Assembly: GCA_020975725.1 (NCBI GenBank)
Contig: QXJR01000028.1
Span: 186,001 to 250,000, forward strand
Source: Picocystis sp. L7
Taxonomy: Eukaryota > Chlorophyta > Picocystophyceae > Picocystales > Picocystaceae
Direction of reading: 5' to 3'
Length of the DNA: 64,000 nt
How positions within the stretch are numbered: position 1 is the first letter of the stretch; each line of letters opens with the position of its first letter. Positions 11,743-22,573 of this stretch are shown one piece after another. Position numbers and translations under genes: made by a program. The notes below the pieces were generated by a model. That model searched no databases. It was not told the origin of the DNA and saw only the letters and a program-made list of their open reading frames with translations.

Positions 11743-13584
11743 ATGGCGTCGAACCACACGCCACGCGCGTTCGTGGTGCCGCAAGTGGAAGACAATGCCG
11801 AAGGATGGGGACCCTGCAGCGTGCCTGATCACCTGAAGGACCTGCCGTACGCACCCTTCAACAAGGCGGACAAGATCGGAAGAGCCGCCGACTTCTCCGG
11901 TGCGACCTACGGGAAAGCACATTATGGTGCGTCGTGCTTTGCTCACTGCACGAAAGCAGAACGGGGAAAAGGCTTGGAAGAGGGATGGCTGACGCGATGG
12001 AGGGCACTTCGGATGCACAGGACGAAACCAGGCCGATCGAAACGCAGGAGATCGAAACGCACCGACCGCGTCCGTGTTCAACCTCGTCTACCAAGACGGT
12101 GAGGACGCCTACAAGCTCGTGGACAACAAACCCGTCACGAGACAACGATTCGGACCGCCCAGGAGGTTCCAACAGAGGTTCCAGAGGAGAGATCGGGATC
12201 CCAGGCGAGACATTGGACCCGAAAGAGAAGGTGTGGCCAACCACGCCAAGGACCGACCGCCCAGGACACGTCGTGGGAACTTCCAGCGTTTTGGAAGGTG
12301 GAATCGGGATGCAGGAAAGGTGCGTGCAAAGAGAAGTGATCGAGCGAAGAAAGCGAAAGGACGTCGGAACAGCGGCGCAAGAGACTGACGTGGAAGGTCA
12401 CTGTCTCGATCCTACAGGCCTCTCACGGACCCTCCGCCGAGGTGGGACCCAAATGGAGGATGCTGGAACAGATCCAATTCGCGGCGCTCACCAAACTCAA
12501 CGTGACGGAACCAGAAGCAGTGGACCTCGTGCGCTGCGGAAAGCTGGAGTGCTACGACAAGGCCTATGATCGCGTTACCCCCAAGTTTGCCAAGAAGCTC
12601 CGGAAGTTTGAGAACCTCGTGTTTCCAAACGTGACCACGAGCGAGGATCCAGTGATCAGGAGGCTGGAAGAAAAGATGGAGGGCAACGTGTATGCAACGG
12701 ACAAGATCCTCTCGCGCCTCATGTGTGCTCCGCGTTCAGCCTACTCGTGGGACGTCGTGGTGACGAAGACCGGGGACAAACTGTTCTTTGACAAACGTGA
12801 CCGGAGCGACTTCGACCTCCTCACGGTCCACGAGACGGCTCAGGAACCTCTGGAGGAGGATAAAGATCCCCACAACAGCGCCGGCGAGCTGAGCCAGGAA
12901 GCCACCCAGATCAATCAGAACTTCTCCCAACAAGTGCTGACCGAAGGAGAAAGGGCCATCGAATTTGAGGAAGGCAATCCGTACGAAGGGGGAAGTCAGC
13001 AGAAGTGTGCAAAGCAAGCCTACAGGTACAGGAAGTGGCAGCTTGACGAAAACACAGTTTTGGTTGCGCGCTGCGAGTTGGATGGATACACAGACAACAA
13101 GGGGCAAGATGCATTGTTGTCCATCAAGGCTTTGAACGAGTTTGATTCCAAAGCCACAGGGGTGGACTGGCGGCACAAGTTGGAGAACCAGCGGGGAGCT
13201 ATTTTGGCCACCGAGCTGAAGAACAATGCAAACAAGCTGGCCCGATGGACCGCAGAAGCACTGCTTTCTGGAGCGGACCAAATTCGCCTCGGCTATGTTA
13301 CCCGCAGCATGATGAAGGACAACCGCAACCATCTGGTGTTGGGTACGCAGATGTGCAAGCCAAGGGACTTTGCTGCACAAATCAATCTCAAGGTGGGTAA
13401 TCTTTGGGGCATATTCAAATCCATCGTTGAACTGTGCCGCACGCTAGCCGACGGGAAGTACCTGTTGATGAAAGACCCCAATAAGCAGACCATTCTTCTG
13501 TATCAGGTGCCGGAGGATGCATTTGATCCGGCGGAAGAGGAAGAAGAGGAAGAGGAAGAAGAAGATGTGAACGAGGAAGATTGA
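11743..13584 (+). CDS. EIF3D: eukaryotic translation initiation factor 3 subunit D (two introns)
   Basis: eIF3d is the eIF3 subunit that can bind the mRNA cap. Exons 11743-11926, 12048-12319 and 12418-13584 give 540 aa. Introns are 121 bp (donor GTGCGT, acceptor CGCAG) and 98 bp (donor GTGCGT, acceptor CCTACAG). The product is colinear with eIF3d: N-terminal EGWGPCSVP and ADFSGATYG, a basic RNA-binding segment rich in R/Q/F, ECYDKAYDR, SAYSWDVVV, LFFDKRDRSDFDLLTV, GVDWRHKLENQRGAILATEL, KLARW, KDPNKQ, and a C-terminal poly-Glu tail. Intron 1 ends in CAGGAG, where either AG keeps the frame, so a one-residue splice variant is possible. It converges on the H4-fusion gene with an 87-bp gap. Confidence 0.93.
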
Positions 13585-13671: not shown

Positions 13672-14409
13672 CTAGATGAGCCACACGGTTTTATTCAGGT
13701 ACATGACGCGATTCTCGTCCTGCAGCGCAAGGATCACAGCTTCGAGTTCGCCCTCGGTGACTGGTTCGGTTCTTTGGACGTGTACAGCCAGGGATGAAAC
13801 GGGGCAGCTGTCCACGTGTTCTTGCAAGAAGTACGACGCAATGTACGTCTGCAGTCTTTGCAACCTTTCTGCGTCCATCGCTTCCCCTTGCACGTCCGCT
13901 TGTTCGGTGTGTCCCACCTGGAACGCCTTGACCGGCGAGACGACGGGCTTTCGCAGCGGCATCTTCACCTTTTGCAATCGTTTGTGCCTGGGGAGCACGG
14001 CACCCGTCAAATTCTCCGCACCTGGCCAGAATCCATAGAGCGTTTGTCCTCTCCTTTTGAGCGCACGCAGCACGTCGATGGGCAGTACAGTGACCCTTTG
14101 TGCGTGTTCGGTATAGACGGCGATGTCTGGGAGGACCTGCTTCAGGTACCTCTTGAGCTCTTTCCTGGCCACATCGTAGAAGGAGAGGCTGACCCTCTGC
14201 ACGCCAGCCCTCCTGGCGAGTCTTCGGACGTCGTTTTTGGTGATGCCTTGGAGTGCACTGCGGTGGTTCCGAGTCCGGTGGTTTCTCTTGGTTCCTCCTC
14301 TCCCGCTTCCGCGCGCCTTCTTCCCTTCCGCTTCCCCCGTTCTTTGGGCCGGCGAGAAGGCCGCATGAGGCGCCTTGGCGACCACCCTTTTCGCACCCGA
14401 CTTGGCCAT
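13672..14409 (-). CDS. histone H4 variant fused to a C-terminal MCM3-like winged-helix domain
   Basis: A single uninterrupted frame of 245 aa. Residues 39-127 are histone H4: GGTKR tail remnant, LQGITKNDVRRLARRAGV, then VYTEHAQRVTV and DVLRALKRRGQTLYGF, the H4 signature. The N-terminal tail is longer than in canonical H4 (about 38 residues before the GGTKR) and diverged. After the TLYGF strand comes a basic linker (128-180), then residues 181-245, which read like the C-terminal winged helix of MCM3: VTEGELEAVILALQDENRVM and a terminal VWLI. Canonical H4 is about 103 aa and ends at TLYGFGG. I chose the ATG at 14409; an open frame continues upstream, but those residues are low complexity. An AATAAA occurs inside the last codons. 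A fusion of this kind is unknown to me; the H4 half is certain, the winged helix likely. Confidence 0.8.
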   Translation of the reverse strand: MAKSGAKRVVAKAPHAAFSPAQRTGEAEGKKARGSGRGGTKRNHRTRNHRSALQGITKNDVRRLARRAGVQRVSLSFYDVARKELKRYLKQVLPDIAVYTEHAQRVTVLPIDVLRALKRRGQTLYGFWPGAENLTGAVLPRHKRLQKVKMPLRKPVVSPVKAFQVGHTEQADVQGEAMDAERLQRLQTYIASYFLQEHVDSCPVSSLAVHVQRTEPVTEGELEAVILALQDENRVMYLNKTVWLI

Positions 14410-14523
14410 TCGCACTTCCTGCTGTGCGACACTTGCAGCTATGGACGTTCGTTCCCCTCTCCTTCCCCGAGGGTCCGAAAACCGCGGGAACCTCTCCCAT
14501 TGGTCCCCCCGTCCCCGTCCATG

Positions 14524-14570
14524 GACCGTCCATTCGCGATCTTTGGACGGTCCATTCGCGGTCTTTCCTG
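14524..14570. repeat. two tandem copies of a GGACCGTCCATTCGCG-type 22-bp unit
   Basis: The unit (ACGGTCCATTCGCG followed by A/G-TCTTT) is repeated head to tail with a period of about 22 bp, 115-160 bp upstream of the H4-fusion start. The same core appears once upstream of eIF3d, so it may be a regulatory site. Confidence 0.4.
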
Positions 14571-14720
14571 GTCCTTCCCTTTCGGCCTCGGACATCCCGC
14601 ACAGGGGCAGGTCGATCGAACCGCATTGGACCGCTGCACCAGGGATCCAGAGGGAGGGATCCTGGGATTGACCGAGAGAGAGAAGGAGAGGGGGATTGAC
14701 CGGGACAGAGGGTAGTGCCT

Positions 14721-14754
14721 CAACTTTTTGTAACGAGACGATTACAAAACGTTG
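14721..14754. repeat. recombinase-site-like inverted repeat A (13-8-13), left end of unit 1
   Basis: CAACTTTTTGTAA (14721-14733), an 8-bp spacer CGAGACGA, then TTACAAAACGTTG (14742-14754). The arms match at 12 of 13 positions in inverted orientation. Copies lie at 17342-17375 and 19963-19996. Confidence 0.7.
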
Positions 14755-14878
14755 GATCGAAATCTTGGGGAAAGATATCGATTAAAGAACTGCAGGTAGA
14801 TATCGATGGAACTAGGGTTTTTTCTCCCAGCCGTTACGAGGGGACAAGTTGTCGACCGATCCACGGCAGCGAAGGACG

Positions 14879-17041
14879 TCACGTAGATCCGCGAGCAAGT
14901 TCGCCATCTTCGTCGCGCTGGCACTCCCGTCTCCTGAGGTACGTCGCAGCCGTGCGCCAAGTTAGTTTGCGACCGTTGCGAGACGCGTTTGGTACGAGTG
15001 CTTGGACGTGTTGATAGATCTCGTCTGCACGATCTGCGGACACGACCGACCGTCCGTCCCATTCTCCTCGACGTTTAGCCTCCGACACGAGGCGACTCAT
15101 GAGGTAATGCAGGTCCGCGAGGTGTGGTCGTTGCTCTCTACGCACGTGAGCTGACGTGAGACGCATCCATGGAAGGTCGCCTGAGATGTAGGACACGAAT
15201 GCCTGGCGCACTGTCACCTTCGTGGGCAAGTCGACCGATGAAGCTGGCAATCGGAGCAGACCGAGCATTGCATTGGAATCACGTGCCTCCACCGTTGCTG
15301 TTGGTTGTTGCATCTGGACAGCATCCTCGATTCTCTGCATCAGCGGAGTGACCAAGTCACTCACCACACTGCGGATGGTGGCAGGTGTGATGTTACCGCA
15401 CTCAAAGTCCCTTTCTTGCATGCACTGAAGAAGGACATCACGGATGTCCTCCTTCAGTGTGTTCAACTTGGATGTCGCTTTCTCACAGTGGCTGAGGATG
15501 TGAACGTTCATTGGTATACCTGTAGGACTGAGGTCATTTCCACATCGGTCATGTGTTGACTCGGCACTCACAAACTCTGCAATGCATGACCTTGAGCTGT
15601 CCCTCCATAAGGGAATGCTTCGGAGAGGGTGGTTGCCTGGGAGGTTGTCATGGATCCACTTCTCATGGTACAGCAAGTTTGCAAGTAGATGCTCCAGCAC
15701 TATATCCAAAGCATTGGTTTTCCCGAATGCAGCAAATGTCAAGCGAGCAAGCCTACTTGCGATAGTCATATCCACTCCAGGGATGAAATGCGGGGGTAGT
15801 TGAGCAAACTTTGAGCCACTTGAGGGTGCATGACCTGCCACAATCCTTCCAATATATTGATCACCTGCTGATTCATACCTCAAGTATGTACCGAGAACTT
15901 TGCCGGTATCCCATCCGGCTCGGTTACAAATGCTCATCATGGACGGCCCATCAGTAATCCCTGATGTGACATATGTACTTGCGCCTTTTCTATTGGAATG
16001 AGTGCCAATATCACTTGGATCCAACCCATAACATTGCAATATTTCTCTGTTTTTCACCTTGAAGCGCTCCATGTGAGCCGAGTGAGCAGCGTAAATGTTG
16101 GCATGGGGGAAGATTGCATTGTTTTCCTTCCCCACCTCAAAGCATGCCAAGTATGCTGCCAAACAAAACAACGGGCATATTTCAGGGGTTGAAGGATTAG
16201 AATACACATGCTTAGGAAACCTTCCTTGCTTCTCACCATCCTGATCATTTTTCTGGTGCGGTATATAGACCCTCAACCCATCATTCTCCCATTGGAGGTG
16301 GGAGAGGCAAAGCCCACATGTACTATGAGCGCGTGCGGCCAAGTTCCACGAAAAGACATGAATTAGCAAGGCACCCAATACACCTTCCACAAGGAGCTTC
16401 TTCGAGATTGCACAATACAACTGATATGGAAGGGCCATTTTGCCTCTTTCATGGGTAGAGTTTGGGTCTACTCCTCTTTCTTGGGCCGAAACTCTTCTCA
16501 ATGCGTTCATGTATTCGCTCACTTGCTCATCAAACCATTCGGGCAAGGGGACATTTGCATGGCGATAGAGGTGTTTCAAGGCACTCCTATAGTTCCCATA
16601 CGTCCGCAAGTAAGTCTCACGACCATTGAAGTCCCTTTTCCTTTGTTGTGCCAAAAACATCGCCCAAGCATTGAAGTGCAAGCACTCCAAATTGACTTTA
16701 CCGACAAGCATAGTGTGGTTCAACTCCTCACAACTCGACAACGTATCTTTTATCGCAGCGAGACGATCCTTCTCATCCAAGAGTTGAAGAGAGGTCCTCC
16801 AAGTTTCTGTTATGAGTCCCCCACTTTGCAAAGATGGTAGATTTTCATAGTTGGCAAAGGCCCATGCCACAAAACGCTTGTTCATTCCTAGGTAAGCTTT
16901 CCGTGTCTTCTCGGACTTGCTATTCCGTTGTATCTCCCTCACGAGTGATGGTTGAAGGTGCTCCGAACCTCGGCCATGAAGCTCCGAACGTGGCGTTGGT
17001 TCCTCCGAAGGCGGAGGCTCGAACGGGCCCGTGGATGCCAT
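14879..17041 (-). CDS. Crypton-type tyrosine recombinase, copy 1
   Basis: A 720-aa protein starting at the ATG at 17041. An N-terminal SAM-like DNA-binding region (about 30-180) precedes the catalytic domain: Arg I in SWNLAARAHST (about R237), a Lys in PHQKNDQ (about 264), the box II HxxR as THSNRKGAST (H348, R351), AGW, then the nucleophile in GTYLRYESAGDQ (Y386 or Y389). All five classes of catalytic residue are present, so the enzyme looks active. The segment after it (PPHF and beyond, about 420-720) is a long C-terminal extension of unknown function. Such recombinases with AGDQ-x-x-GR after the Tyr recur in protist Crypton-like elements. It is the only gene of the unit. Confidence 0.8.
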   Translation of the reverse strand: MASTGPFEPPPSEEPTPRSELHGRGSEHLQPSLVREIQRNSKSEKTRKAYLGMNKRFVAWAFANYENLPSLQSGGLITETWRTSLQLLDEKDRLAAIKDTLSSCEELNHTMLVGKVNLECLHFNAWAMFLAQQRKRDFNGRETYLRTYGNYRSALKHLYRHANVPLPEWFDEQVSEYMNALRRVSAQERGVDPNSTHERGKMALPYQLYCAISKKLLVEGVLGALLIHVFSWNLAARAHSTCGLCLSHLQWENDGLRVYIPHQKNDQDGEKQGRFPKHVYSNPSTPEICPLFCLAAYLACFEVGKENNAIFPHANIYAAHSAHMERFKVKNREILQCYGLDPSDIGTHSNRKGASTYVTSGITDGPSMMSICNRAGWDTGKVLGTYLRYESAGDQYIGRIVAGHAPSSGSKFAQLPPHFIPGVDMTIASRLARLTFAAFGKTNALDIVLEHLLANLLYHEKWIHDNLPGNHPLRSIPLWRDSSRSCIAEFVSAESTHDRCGNDLSPTGIPMNVHILSHCEKATSKLNTLKEDIRDVLLQCMQERDFECGNITPATIRSVVSDLVTPLMQRIEDAVQMQQPTATVEARDSNAMLGLLRLPASSVDLPTKVTVRQAFVSYISGDLPWMRLTSAHVRREQRPHLADLHYLMSRLVSEAKRRGEWDGRSVVSADRADEIYQHVQALVPNASRNGRKLTWRTAATYLRRRECQRDEDGELARGST

Positions 17042-17129
17042 CGCCAACTAACATTTCAACCCTCGATCGGATCGATCCATCGATATCCATCCGATCCACC
17101 ATTGAGATCTTTCCCTCATTCGATCGGTA

Positions 17130-17163
17130 TCTTTTTTTGTAAGGATCTCGTTACAAAAAGTTG
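17130..17163. repeat. recombinase-site-like inverted repeat B (13-8-13)
   Basis: The right arm TTACAAAAAGTTG (17151-17163) is the exact reverse complement of the left arm of site A; the left arm (17130-17142) is a weaker match; the spacer is GGATCTCG, 8 bp. It lies just upstream of the recombinase ATG. Copies are at +2621 and +5242. Confidence 0.6.
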
Positions 17164-17248
17164 AGCCATCGATCGATGGAAAAACGGACAATAGGAAAGG
17201 AGGTCGTTTCGATAGGGAAAACGGGGCGGGATCCATCCACTCGTGAAT

Positions 17249-17281
17249 CAACTTTTTATAACGAATCGTTACAAAAACGGT
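17249..17281. repeat. recombinase-site-like inverted repeat C (13-7-13)
   Basis: CAACTTTTTATAA (17249-17261), spacer CGAATCG (7 bp), then TTACAAAAACGGT (17269-17281). Copies are at +2621 and +5242. Confidence 0.6.
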
Positions 17282-17310
17282 CCATTCGATAGGGGATTTT
17301 GGAATCCGGG

Positions 17311-17354
17311 TTACAAAATGTTGGGAGAAAGGGTAGTGCCTCAACTTTTTGTAA
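17311..17354. repeat. unit-unit junction flanked by outward-facing half-sites
   Basis: The right end of unit 1 carries TTACAAAATGTTG (17311-17323) and the left end of unit 2 carries CAACTTTTTGTAA (17342-17354). The 18 bp between them hold the junction, GAGAAAG next to GGTAGTGCC. The same junction recurs at +2621. Confidence 0.6.
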
Positions 17355-17499
17355 CGAGACGATTACAAAACGTTGGATCGAAATCTTGGGGAAAGATATC
17401 GATTAAAGAACTGCAGGTAGATATCGATGGAACTAGGGTTTTTTCTCCCAGCCGTTACGAGGGGACAAGTTGTCGACCGATCCACGGCAGCGAAGGACG

Positions 17500-19662
17500 T
17501 CACGTAGATCCGCGAGCAAGTTCGCCATCTTCGTCGCGCTGGCACTCCCGTCTCCTGAGGTACGTCGCAGCCGTGCGCCAAGTTAGTTTGCGACCGTTGC
17601 GAGACGCGTTTGGTACGAGTGCTTGGACGTGTTGATAGATCTCGTCTGCACGATCTGCGGACACGACCGACCGTCCGTCCCATTCTCCTCGACGTTTAGC
17701 CTCCGACACGAGGCGACTCATGAGGTAATGCAGGTCCGCGAGGTGTGGTCGTTGCTCTCTACGCACGTGAGCTGACGTGAGACGCATCCATGGAAGGTCG
17801 CCTGAGATGTAGGACACGAATGCCTGGCGCACTGTCACCTTCGTGGGCAAGTCGACCGATGAAGCTGGCAATCGGAGCAGACCGAGCATTGCATTGGAAT
17901 CACGTGCCTCCACCGTTGCTGTTGGTTGTTGCATCTGGACAGCATCCTCGATTCTCTGCATCAGCGGAGTGACCAAGTCACTCACCACACTGCGGATGGT
18001 GGCAGGTGTGATGTTACCGCACTCAAAGTCCCTTTCTTGCATGCACTGAAGAAGGACATCACGGATGTCCTCCTTCAGTGTGTTCAACTTGGATGTCGCT
18101 TTCTCACAGTGGCTGAGGATGTGAACGTTCATTGGTATACCTGTAGGACTGAGGTCATTTCCACATCGGTCATGTGTTGACTCGGCACTCACAAACTCTG
18201 CAATGCATGACCTTGAGCTGTCCCTCCATAAGGGAATGCTTCGGAGAGGGTGGTTGCCTGGGAGGTTGTCATGGATCCACTTCTCATGGTACAGCAAGTT
18301 TGCAAGTAGATGCTCCAGCACTATATCCAAAGCATTGGTTTTCCCGAATGCAGCAAATGTCAAGCGAGCAAGCCTACTTGCGATAGTCATATCCACTCCA
18401 GGGATGAAATGCGGGGGTAGTTGAGCAAACTTTGAGCCACTTGAGGGTGCATGACCTGCCACAATCCTTCCAATATATTGATCACCTGCTGATTCATACC
18501 TCAAGTATGTACCGAGAACTTTGCCGGTATCCCATCCGGCTCGGTTACAAATGCTCATCATGGACGGCCCATCAGTAATCCCTGATGTGACATATGTACT
18601 TGCGCCTTTTCTATTGGAATGAGTGCCAATATCACTTGGATCCAACCCATAACATTGCAATATTTCTCTGTTTTTCACCTTGAAGCGCTCCATGTGAGCC
18701 GAGTGAGCAGCGTAAATGTTGGCATGGGGGAAGATTGCATTGTTTTCCTTCCCCACCTCAAAGCATGCCAAGTATGCTGCCAAACAAAACAACGGGCATA
18801 TTTCAGGGGTTGAAGGATTAGAATACACATGCTTAGGAAACCTTCCTTGCTTCTCACCATCCTGATCATTTTTCTGGTGCGGTATATAGACCCTCAACCC
18901 ATCATTCTCCCATTGGAGGTGGGAGAGGCAAAGCCCACATGTACTATGAGCGCGTGCGGCCAAGTTCCACGAAAAGACATGAATTAGCAAGGCACCCAAT
19001 ACACCTTCCACAAGGAGCTTCTTCGAGATTGCACAATACAACTGATATGGAAGGGCCATTTTGCCTCTTTCATGGGTAGAGTTTGGGTCTACTCCTCTTT
19101 CTTGGGCCGAAACTCTTCTCAATGCGTTCATGTATTCGCTCACTTGCTCATCAAACCATTCGGGCAAGGGGACATTTGCATGGCGATAGAGGTGTTTCAA
19201 GGCACTCCTATAGTTCCCATACGTCCGCAAGTAAGTCTCACGACCATTGAAGTCCCTTTTCCTTTGTTGTGCCAAAAACATCGCCCAAGCATTGAAGTGC
19301 AAGCACTCCAAATTGACTTTACCGACAAGCATAGTGTGGTTCAACTCCTCACAACTCGACAACGTATCTTTTATCGCAGCGAGACGATCCTTCTCATCCA
19401 AGAGTTGAAGAGAGGTCCTCCAAGTTTCTGTTATGAGTCCCCCACTTTGCAAAGATGGTAGATTTTCATAGTTGGCAAAGGCCCATGCCACAAAACGCTT
19501 GTTCATTCCTAGGTAAGCTTTCCGTGTCTTCTCGGACTTGCTATTCCGTTGTATCTCCCTCACGAGTGATGGTTGAAGGTGCTCCGAACCTCGGCCATGA
19601 AGCTCCGAACGTGGCGTTGGTTCCTCCGAAGGCGGAGGCTCGAACGGGCCCGTGGATGCCAT
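17500..19662 (-). CDS. Crypton-type tyrosine recombinase, copy 2
   Basis: The translated protein is identical to copy 1 over its full length (720 aa, same start context). Its 5' flank contains sites B and C of unit 2. Confidence 0.8.
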   Translation of the reverse strand: MASTGPFEPPPSEEPTPRSELHGRGSEHLQPSLVREIQRNSKSEKTRKAYLGMNKRFVAWAFANYENLPSLQSGGLITETWRTSLQLLDEKDRLAAIKDTLSSCEELNHTMLVGKVNLECLHFNAWAMFLAQQRKRDFNGRETYLRTYGNYRSALKHLYRHANVPLPEWFDEQVSEYMNALRRVSAQERGVDPNSTHERGKMALPYQLYCAISKKLLVEGVLGALLIHVFSWNLAARAHSTCGLCLSHLQWENDGLRVYIPHQKNDQDGEKQGRFPKHVYSNPSTPEICPLFCLAAYLACFEVGKENNAIFPHANIYAAHSAHMERFKVKNREILQCYGLDPSDIGTHSNRKGASTYVTSGITDGPSMMSICNRAGWDTGKVLGTYLRYESAGDQYIGRIVAGHAPSSGSKFAQLPPHFIPGVDMTIASRLARLTFAAFGKTNALDIVLEHLLANLLYHEKWIHDNLPGNHPLRSIPLWRDSSRSCIAEFVSAESTHDRCGNDLSPTGIPMNVHILSHCEKATSKLNTLKEDIRDVLLQCMQERDFECGNITPATIRSVVSDLVTPLMQRIEDAVQMQQPTATVEARDSNAMLGLLRLPASSVDLPTKVTVRQAFVSYISGDLPWMRLTSAHVRREQRPHLADLHYLMSRLVSEAKRRGEWDGRSVVSADRADEIYQHVQALVPNASRNGRKLTWRTAATYLRRRECQRDEDGELARGST

Positions 19663-20120
19663 CGCCAACTAACATTTCAACCCTCGATCGGATCGATCCA
19701 TCGATATCCATCCGATCCACCATTGAGATCTTTCCCTCATTCGATCGGTATCTTTTTTTGTAAGGATCTCGTTACAAAAAGTTGAGCCATCGATCGATGG
19801 AAAAACGGACAATAGGAAAGGAGGTCGTTTCGATAGGGAAAACGGGGCGGGATCCATCCACTCGTGAATCAACTTTTTATAACGAATCGTTACAAAAACG
19901 GTCCATTCGATAGGGGATTTTGGAATCCGGGTTACAAAATGTTGGGAGAAAGGGTAGTGCCTCAACTTTTTGTAACGAGACGATTACAAAACGTTGGATC
20001 GAAATCTTGGGGAAAGATATCGATTAAAGAACTGCAGGTAGATATCGATGGAACTAGGGTTTTTTCTCCCAGCCGTTACGAGGGGACAAGTTGTCGACCG
20101 ATCCACGGCAGCGAAGGACG

Positions 20121-22283
20121 TCACGTAGATCCGCGAGCAAGTTCGCCATCTTCGTCGCGCTGGCACTCCCGTCTCCTGAGGTACGTCGCAGCCGTGCGCC
20201 AAGTTAGTTTGCGACCGTTGCGAGACGCGTTTGGTACGAGTGCTTGGACGTGTTGATAGATCTCGTCTGCACGATCTGCGGACACGACCGACCGTCCGTC
20301 CCATTCTCCTCGACGTTTAGCCTCCGACACGAGGCGACTCATGAGGTAATGCAGGTCCGCGAGGTGTGGTCGTTGCTCTCTACGCACGTGAGCTGACGTG
20401 AGACGCATCCATGGAAGGTCGCCTGAGATGTAGGACACGAATGCCTGGCGCACTGTCACCTTCGTGGGCAAGTCGACCGATGAAGCTGGCAATCGGAGCA
20501 GACCGAGCATTGCATTGGAATCACGTGCCTCCACCGTTGCTGTTGGTTGTTGCATCTGGACAGCATCCTCGATTCTCTGCATCAGCGGAGTGACCAAGTC
20601 ACTCACCACACTGCGGATGGTGGCAGGTGTGATGTTACCGCACTCAAAGTCCCTTTCTTGCATGCACTGAAGAAGGACATCACGGATGTCCTCCTTCAGT
20701 GTGTTCAACTTGGATGTCGCTTTCTCACAGTGGCTGAGGATGTGAACGTTCATTGGTATACCTGTAGGACTGAGGTCATTTCCACATCGGTCATGTGTTG
20801 ACTCGGCACTCACAAACTCTGCAATGCATGACCTTGAGCTGTCCCTCCATAAGGGAATGCTTCGGAGAGGGTGGTTGCCTGGGAGGTTGTCATGGATCCA
20901 CTTCTCATGGTACAGCAAGTTTGCAAGTAGATGCTCCAGCACTATATCCAAAGCATTGGTTTTCCCGAATGCAGCAAATGTCAAGCGAGCAAGCCTACTT
21001 GCGATAGTCATATCCACTCCAGGGATGAAATGCGGGGGTAGTTGAGCAAACTTTGAGCCACTTGAGGGTGCATGACCTGCCACAATCCTTCCAATATATT
21101 GATCACCTGCTGATTCATACCTCAAGTATGTACCGAGAACTTTGCCGGTATCCCATCCGGCTCGGTTACAAATGCTCATCATGGACGGCCCATCAGTAAT
21201 CCCTGATGTGACATATGTACTTGCGCCTTTTCTATTGGAATGAGTGCCAATATCACTTGGATCCAACCCATAACATTGCAATATTTCTCTGTTTTTCACC
21301 TTGAAGCGCTCCATGTGAGCCGAGTGAGCAGCGTAAATGTTGGCATGGGGGAAGATTGCATTGTTTTCCTTCCCCACCTCAAAGCATGCCAAGTATGCTG
21401 CCAAACAAAACAACGGGCATATTTCAGGGGTTGAAGGATTAGAATACACATGCTTAGGAAACCTTCCTTGCTTCTCACCATCCTGATCATTTTTCTGGTG
21501 CGGTATATAGACCCTCAACCCATCATTCTCCCATTGGAGGTGGGAGAGGCAAAGCCCACATGTACTATGAGCGCGTGCGGCCAAGTTCCACGAAAAGACA
21601 TGAATTAGCAAGGCACCCAATACACCTTCCACAAGGAGCTTCTTCGAGATTGCACAATACAACTGATATGGAAGGGCCATTTTGCCTCTTTCATGGGTAG
21701 AGTTTGGGTCTACTCCTCTTTCTTGGGCCGAAACTCTTCTCAATGCGTTCATGTATTCGCTCACTTGCTCATCAAACCATTCGGGCAAGGGGACATTTGC
21801 ATGGCGATAGAGGTGTTTCAAGGCACTCCTATAGTTCCCATACGTCCGCAAGTAAGTCTCACGACCATTGAAGTCCCTTTTCCTTTGTTGTGCCAAAAAC
21901 ATCGCCCAAGCATTGAAGTGCAAGCACTCCAAATTGACTTTACCGACAAGCATAGTGTGGTTCAACTCCTCACAACTCGACAACGTATCTTTTATCGCAG
22001 CGAGACGATCCTTCTCATCCAAGAGTTGAAGAGAGGTCCTCCAAGTTTCTGTTATGAGTCCCCCACTTTGCAAAGATGGTAGATTTTCATAGTTGGCAAA
22101 GGCCCATGCCACAAAACGCTTGTTCATTCCTAGGTAAGCTTTCCGTGTCTTCTCGGACTTGCTATTCCGTTGTATCTCCCTCACGAGTGATGGTTGAAGG
22201 TGCTCCGAACCTCGGCCATGAAGCTCCGAACGTGGCGTTGGTTCCTCCGAAGGCGGAGGCTCGAACGGGCCCGTGGATGCCAT
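20121..22283 (-). CDS. Crypton-type tyrosine recombinase, copy 3
   Basis: The translated protein is identical to copies 1 and 2 (720 aa). This copy is nearest to SND3 and is transcribed away from it; its 5' flank runs into the purine-rich SND3 promoter. Confidence 0.8.
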   Translation of the reverse strand: MASTGPFEPPPSEEPTPRSELHGRGSEHLQPSLVREIQRNSKSEKTRKAYLGMNKRFVAWAFANYENLPSLQSGGLITETWRTSLQLLDEKDRLAAIKDTLSSCEELNHTMLVGKVNLECLHFNAWAMFLAQQRKRDFNGRETYLRTYGNYRSALKHLYRHANVPLPEWFDEQVSEYMNALRRVSAQERGVDPNSTHERGKMALPYQLYCAISKKLLVEGVLGALLIHVFSWNLAARAHSTCGLCLSHLQWENDGLRVYIPHQKNDQDGEKQGRFPKHVYSNPSTPEICPLFCLAAYLACFEVGKENNAIFPHANIYAAHSAHMERFKVKNREILQCYGLDPSDIGTHSNRKGASTYVTSGITDGPSMMSICNRAGWDTGKVLGTYLRYESAGDQYIGRIVAGHAPSSGSKFAQLPPHFIPGVDMTIASRLARLTFAAFGKTNALDIVLEHLLANLLYHEKWIHDNLPGNHPLRSIPLWRDSSRSCIAEFVSAESTHDRCGNDLSPTGIPMNVHILSHCEKATSKLNTLKEDIRDVLLQCMQERDFECGNITPATIRSVVSDLVTPLMQRIEDAVQMQQPTATVEARDSNAMLGLLRLPASSVDLPTKVTVRQAFVSYISGDLPWMRLTSAHVRREQRPHLADLHYLMSRLVSEAKRRGEWDGRSVVSADRADEIYQHVQALVPNASRNGRKLTWRTAATYLRRRECQRDEDGELARGST

Positions 22284-22573
22284 CGCCAACTAACATTTCA
22301 ACCCTCGATCGGATCGATCCATCGATATCCATCCGATCCACCATTGAGATCTTTCCCTCATTCGATCGGTATCTTTTTTTGTAAGGATCTCGTTACAAAA
22401 AGTTGAGCCATCGATCGATGGAAAAACGGACAATAGGAAAGGAGGTCGTTTCGATAGGGAAAACGGGGCGGGATCCATCCACTCGTGAATCAACTTTTTA
22501 TAACGAATCGTTACAAAAACGGTCCATTCGATAGGGGATTTTGGAATCCGGGTTACAAAATGTTGGGAGAAAG

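Follow-up and report, generated by a model that had tools for sequence, protein, structure and literature searches.

Does histone H4 ever carry a folded domain of the replicative helicase in the same polypeptide, and if so, what would such a protein do in chromatin? The question is raised by a locus of the green alga Picocystis sp. L7, which lies in a stretch of 64,000 nucleotides (assembly GCA_020975725.1, contig QXJR01000028.1, positions 186,001 to 250,000; hereafter the window, to which positions refer unless another contig is named). The original prediction, made from the sequence alone, had placed an H4 fold and an MCM3-like winged helix in a single frame at 13672-14409. These coordinates are correct, the strand, which had not been given, is the minus strand, and both domains are recovered by independent comparisons (H4 chains of the PDB, E 3e-25; PF23191, 30.5 bits). 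The architecture, a divergent H4 and an MCM3-type winged helix within a single conserved frame, is close to certain. The reading that we prefer, with a probability of roughly 0.4, is that the product is an H4 variant (H4-WH) that would pair with H3 and present an MCM3-type ORC-Cdc6 docking module on chromatin.

One Frame Encodes Both Domains

The gene and its parts are as follows:

13672..14409, minus strand: coding sequence of the H4-winged-helix fusion, 245 amino acids in an open frame, stop at 13672-13674, start methionine shared with the public protein P0001
14296..14409, minus strand: N-terminal tail (residues 1-38), with a net charge of +7 and weaker conservation
14029..14295, minus strand: histone H4 region, residues 39-127, ending in TLYGF, identified by PDB H4 chains, PF15511, and landmark residues
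13879..14028, minus strand: linker, residues 128-177, of which 128-163 are basic (+7) and conserved, with SPVK at 158-161, and 164-177 are variable
13675..13878, minus strand: MCM3-type C-terminal winged helix, residues 178-245, net charge -5

Upstream of 13672, this frame stays open as far as 14595 at least, and the plus-strand reading of 13672-14409 is interrupted by a stop. Translation from the ATG at 14409 gives 245 codons plus the stop; P0001, an independent record, starts at the same methionine, and the part of the frame upstream of this ATG is poorly conserved. Because other long frames are open on both strands (13691-14626, minus, 311 amino acids; 13816-14715, plus, 299 amino acids), the length of an open frame is weak evidence here. 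Codon usage favors the coding frame in all four parts of the protein, weakly (0.05-0.26 bits per codon), and one antisense frame is positive too in the H4 and winged-helix parts. The case for the fusion is therefore one of homology and conservation, not of frame length.

Three public proteins, P0001, P0002, and P0003, are 98% (over 245 amino acids), 78%, and 77% identical to the window protein and carry both domains according to precomputed Pfam annotation. Identity to P0002 is 23/38 in the N-terminal tail, 67/72 in the histone fold (residues 56-127), 32/36 in linker residues 128-163, 4/14 in residues 164-177, and 57/68 in the winged helix, a succession of conserved blocks around a drifting hinge that fits a genuine two-domain protein; the corresponding counts for P0003 are 24/38 in the tail, 68/72 in the fold, and 30/36 in the linker. 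In P0001, all 36 linker residues are identical, and the SPVK motif, which we take from its consensus to be a cyclin-dependent kinase (CDK) type site, is invariant across the four close sequences. The conservation of residues 128-163 argues against a gene boundary or an intron within the linker.

A search for the same fusion in other records, one of the checks set by the original prediction, yielded not only these close relatives but also two distant ones, P0127 and P0129, which are far more divergent and keep the domain order, H4 then winged helix. The C-terminal domain of P0127 is MCM3-type by sequence. That of P0129 has no Pfam match at E≤10 and scores 5.2 bits over part of an MCM3 profile, a value reached by none of 1,000 shuffled sequences; we counted P0129 as fused because AlphaFold2 decided in favor of a winged helix (predicted local distance difference test [pLDDT] 81-96), the best clean structural matches of the model including cullin and MCM4-type winged helices in addition to MCM3. 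Among nine proteins compared, five possess a winged helix (P0001-P0003, P0127, and P0129) and four do not (P0125, P0126, P0128, and P0004). The family search was word-based, with 8,000 candidates scored, so that the spread of the fusion is at least that given here; none of the relatives it found came from MMETSP or EukProt sources. In a tree of the H4 part only, the six sequences taken as fused lie on one side of a branch whose support (54/68) neither shows nor rejects their grouping. A viral origin was also considered, and scans of viral contigs with A1, P0127, and P0129 gave no relative confirmed by tblastn. Since similar fused histones occur in other sequence records, the protein looks like a genuine, overlooked histone variant.

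A Strongly Diverged H4

The best 60 of 241 matches of the H4 half to PDB chains are all H4. PF00125, the general model of core histones, gives a weak match (E 0.094). Between the fusion protein and the alga's canonical H4, identity is 51%, which marks its H4 part as a strongly diverged variant, and 118 residues follow TLYGF; by these figures it is an H4 variant and not the canonical (bulk) H4. Nor is it the only H4 gene of the alga, since H4 frames were read at three canonical loci (L010, L011, and L012). Arginines 35, 36, 39, 40, 45, and 78 and T80 (H4 numbering), which we take to be DNA-anchoring residues, are retained, and the six arginines and the C-terminal YGF are kept in the window protein and in P0001-P0003 alike. 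An H4-like basic patch is partly retained in the N-terminal tail. Of the residues on the side facing H2B/H2A, Y72, H75, K91, and R92 are conserved and Y88 and R95 are changed.

P0125, P0126, and P0128 are additional divergent H4-type proteins, all lacking a winged helix. The loss of Y88 is common to P0125 (R), P0126 (L), and the fused family, and P0128 has H at this position.

A Winged Helix of the MCM3 Type

Residues 178-245 alone match PF23191 (WH_MCM3_C) with 30.5 bits (E 4e-7; cut-off 27), and the 307-amino-acid frame scores 26.8 bits, slightly below that cut-off. An MCM3-only profile gives 33.5 bits to the C-terminus, the best of 200 shuffled C-termini reaching 6.3, and a profile built from four fused winged helices retrieves MCM3 C-termini from the PDB as seven of its nine matches at E≤10 (best E 2.5e-4). 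The original prediction had been made to depend on a winged helix in residues 181-245, and AlphaFold2 does find that topology there, with helices at 180-197, 204-212, and 219-231, strands at 201-203, 235-238, and 241-244, and pLDDT of 76-82. In a structural comparison (VIA-align, Z scores), MCM3 was again the best match, as it is by Pfam and by PDB profile search.

The fused domain shares the motif N[RQ][VIL]M with MCM3 winged helices, and its net charge of -5 falls within the span of 16 of these (0 to -5). This acidity does not favor the "DNA-binding module" originally proposed, all the more so as the MCM3 counterpart is described as a protein-docking module for ORC-Cdc6 (PMC7395460, PMC5538431). 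The strongly basic stretch of the fusion protein is its linker. PF00493 (MCM AAA+) is not among the six families that match the protein with E up to 1.

The domain is not a displaced end of the alga's own MCM3. The latter (L018, 802 amino acids) has a winged helix of its own at C9:257662-257847, as the original prediction had suggested verifying, and the fused one is no closer to it (23% identity) than to the other aligned MCM3 winged helices (19-29%). In a quick tree of 20 chosen rows, the alga's MCM3 groups with Chloropicon, environmental relatives, and an MMETSP alga (97 in the Shimodaira-Hasegawa-like approximate likelihood ratio test) and falls, by this placement, in the green lineage. 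P0007, filed as the eel Gymnothorax javanicus, is the third-ranked match to this MCM3 (47% over 79%), with an E-value better than those of the listed plants, and forms a long outgroup branch in the tree.

A Putative Licensing Dock on Chromatin

Beyond the architecture, each step of a mechanism is what we infer from sequence, as is any role in the marking of origins or of parental histones. The H4 part may pair with H3 and become part of tetramers or nucleosomes, at certain sites or during a certain cell-cycle phase; H3 pairing and incorporation of the protein into chromatin are probable. A linker that is basic and in part flexible, and that can lie along DNA, would carry the C-terminus out of the particle, and SPVK would permit cell-cycle control. 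The acidic winged helix, as in MCM3, might then dock on the Cdc6-Orc2 face of DNA-bound ORC-Cdc6, whereby the histone would recruit or tether the origin-licensing machinery or compete with MCM3 for ORC-Cdc6. Such docking is somewhat less probable than not. The yeast MCM3 winged helix suffices for ORC-Cdc6 binding and contacts the winged helix of Orc2 together with the AAA+ domain of Cdc6 (PMC7395460, PMC5538431), and a substitution in the human one hinders MCM recruitment, mildly, and MCM loading (PMC12830165). The genome (20.5 Mb, 30 contigs) is eukaryotic in its gene content, with, for example, eIF3d, nucleosomal histones, and ORC2. It encodes Cdc6/Orc1-type proteins at two loci in addition to ORC2, so that the presumed receptor exists in this alga.

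Several observations weigh against this reading. On the histone side, Y88 is replaced by R and R95 by Q, two residues that presumably face H2B/H2A, K77 and K79 are lost, and the AlphaFold2 helices of the H4 part (58-67, 75-103, and 110-119) have pLDDT of 44-61, a low value that is perhaps due to folding without a partner. In direct scans, P0002 lies just under both Pfam cut-offs (PF23191, 25.6 vs. 27; PF15511, 25.4 vs. 28.1), and P0003 lies under that of PF15511. Sharing just 23% of its residues with the winged helix of the alga's own MCM3, the fused domain may have lost the docking surface. Z-DNA-binding domains, an MCM4-type chain, and the winged helices of APC2 and cullin-1 score 0.5 to 2 Z units under MCM3, and PF16679 (CDT1_C) is a weak second match, found in three of the four members of A10 (best E 0.0015). 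Finally, a basic linker with an acidic winged helix is not general, because the charges of these two parts are -6 and -2 in P0127 and +8 and 0 in P0129.

Alternative Explanations

The winged helix of a chromatin H4 variant may instead bind a partner other than ORC-Cdc6, such as another MCM subunit, a Cdt1-type protein, a nucleic acid, or a silencing or transcription factor, and the protein would then define a specialized nucleosome without an origin role. Since Z scores are nearly equal among winged helices, a fold common to many modules, the fold alone cannot pick the binding partner, and both the CDT1_C match and the low identity to MCM3 winged helices would suit this explanation; we nevertheless consider it somewhat unlikely, given that MCM3 ranks first by all three comparisons and that the acidic charge matches MCM3.

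A further departure would be a soluble, non-nucleosomal protein with a histone fold and a winged helix, comparable to TAFs, CENP-S/T, or histone chaperones, that would act in replication or transcription control as a partner of H3 or of some other histone-fold protein. H4 is normally almost invariant, and a sequence that shares only 51% of its residues with the alga's canonical H4, and in which Y88 and R95 are altered, could point in this direction, as could weak Pfam matches (CENP-S in the fusion protein, TAF as well as CENP-S in P0127 and P0129). On the other hand, the exclusively H4 matches among the best 60 PDB chains, the retained DNA-anchoring arginines and YGF end, and the partly retained N-terminal patch speak for a chromatin histone, which makes a soluble protein quite unlikely.

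One H3 fragment of the alga, L004 (G000:C3:1026081-1026389), differs in its loop 1 (ISPEPLRWTAEAL) and, as classed by eye, is probably the centromeric H3. A centromere-specific H4 partnering this CENH3-like H3 is conceivable on that account but very improbable, as nothing links the fusion directly to CENH3 and an MCM3-type domain is not known to have a centromere role, a point at which no search was aimed. Least credible is an artefact in which two genes, or an intron, share the frame by chance: frames that are open by chance abound here (window GC content 55%), but the same join occurs in three close and two distant records, the linker is conserved at 30 to 36 of 36 residues, and the one GT...AG pair noted by eye immediately past the H4 part (34 nt) would break the frame if removed.

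Genomic Surroundings

Two other features flank the fusion gene:

12442..13584, plus strand: eIF3 subunit D (eIF-3_zeta; PF05091 at E 1e-154, covering positions 168-532 of the 532 in the profile)
14702-22289, on the upstream side of the fusion gene: an element (unit 2621 bp) present three times, head to tail

The eIF3d gene is convergent with the fusion gene, with 87 bp from stop to stop. The element copies are at least 99% identical over 257 nt compared in all three, encode a 722-amino-acid tyrosine-recombinase-like protein (weak Pfam match), and have 34-nt imperfect inverted repeats. The element matches 55 places genome-wide, fragments included, several of them again arranged head to tail, such as a run of four on C24; it looks like a mobile element amplified in tandem, which we take to be of the Crypton or DIRS type. 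No Rfam family matches the window at gathering scores.

Comparison with Known Systems

Many eukaryotes have no strict origin sequence, and the way in which chromatin defines origins has long been a problem. If H4-WH were an ancient and so far overlooked kind of H4 variant, shared by several distantly related eukaryotes and providing nucleosomes with their own MCM3-type licensing dock, origins would be marked by a histone instead of by DNA sequence or histone modification; we regard this wider proposal as unlikely. No H4-winged-helix fusion is described in the titles and abstract openings among the matches listed by a literature search that was thin on subscription papers and bioRxiv preprints. 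H4 is described as the histone that is most conserved and for which the fewest variants are known (PMC4751559, PMC10878826). The nearest described variant that we found is fungal H4E, which, in the part of its description available, is likewise a divergent H4 beside the canonical one, with longer tails, and is nuclear and interacts with H3; its C-terminus is only 7 amino acids longer in Aspergillus nidulans, and that text does not mention a winged helix (PMC10878826), whereas the fusion carries a folded domain. P0126, from Diversispora, is probably an H4E and scores -1.9 bits with the MCM3 winged-helix profile. Dinoflagellate and perkinsid H4 are also divergent and some are elongated, the accessible text mentioning no winged helix (PMC4751559).

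With canonical H4, the fusion has in common the histone-fold sequence, the DNA-anchoring arginines, and the TLYGF end, and it differs by its divergence, its longer N-terminal tail, and the folded domain beyond TLYGF. With MCM3, it shares the sequence family of the winged helix (PF23191), its topology, acidic charge, motif, and C-terminal position, but it is histone-borne, lacks the AAA+ domain, and has diverged from the alga's own MCM3. Fusion of a histone variant to a C-terminal domain is known from macroH2A, and for H4 it appears to be new. MacroH2A also consists of a core histone, a basic linker, and a folded non-histone C-terminal domain, yet it is an H2A with a macrodomain, a family absent from the six that match the fusion protein with E up to 1 and from its PDB matches listed (the best 60 of 241). 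As a conserved H4 that ends in a folded domain, the fusion would be an H4 counterpart of macroH2A; its domain is of the type found in the helicase subunit that first touches ORC-Cdc6, which raises the testable question of whether a histone can itself recruit or restrain origin licensing.
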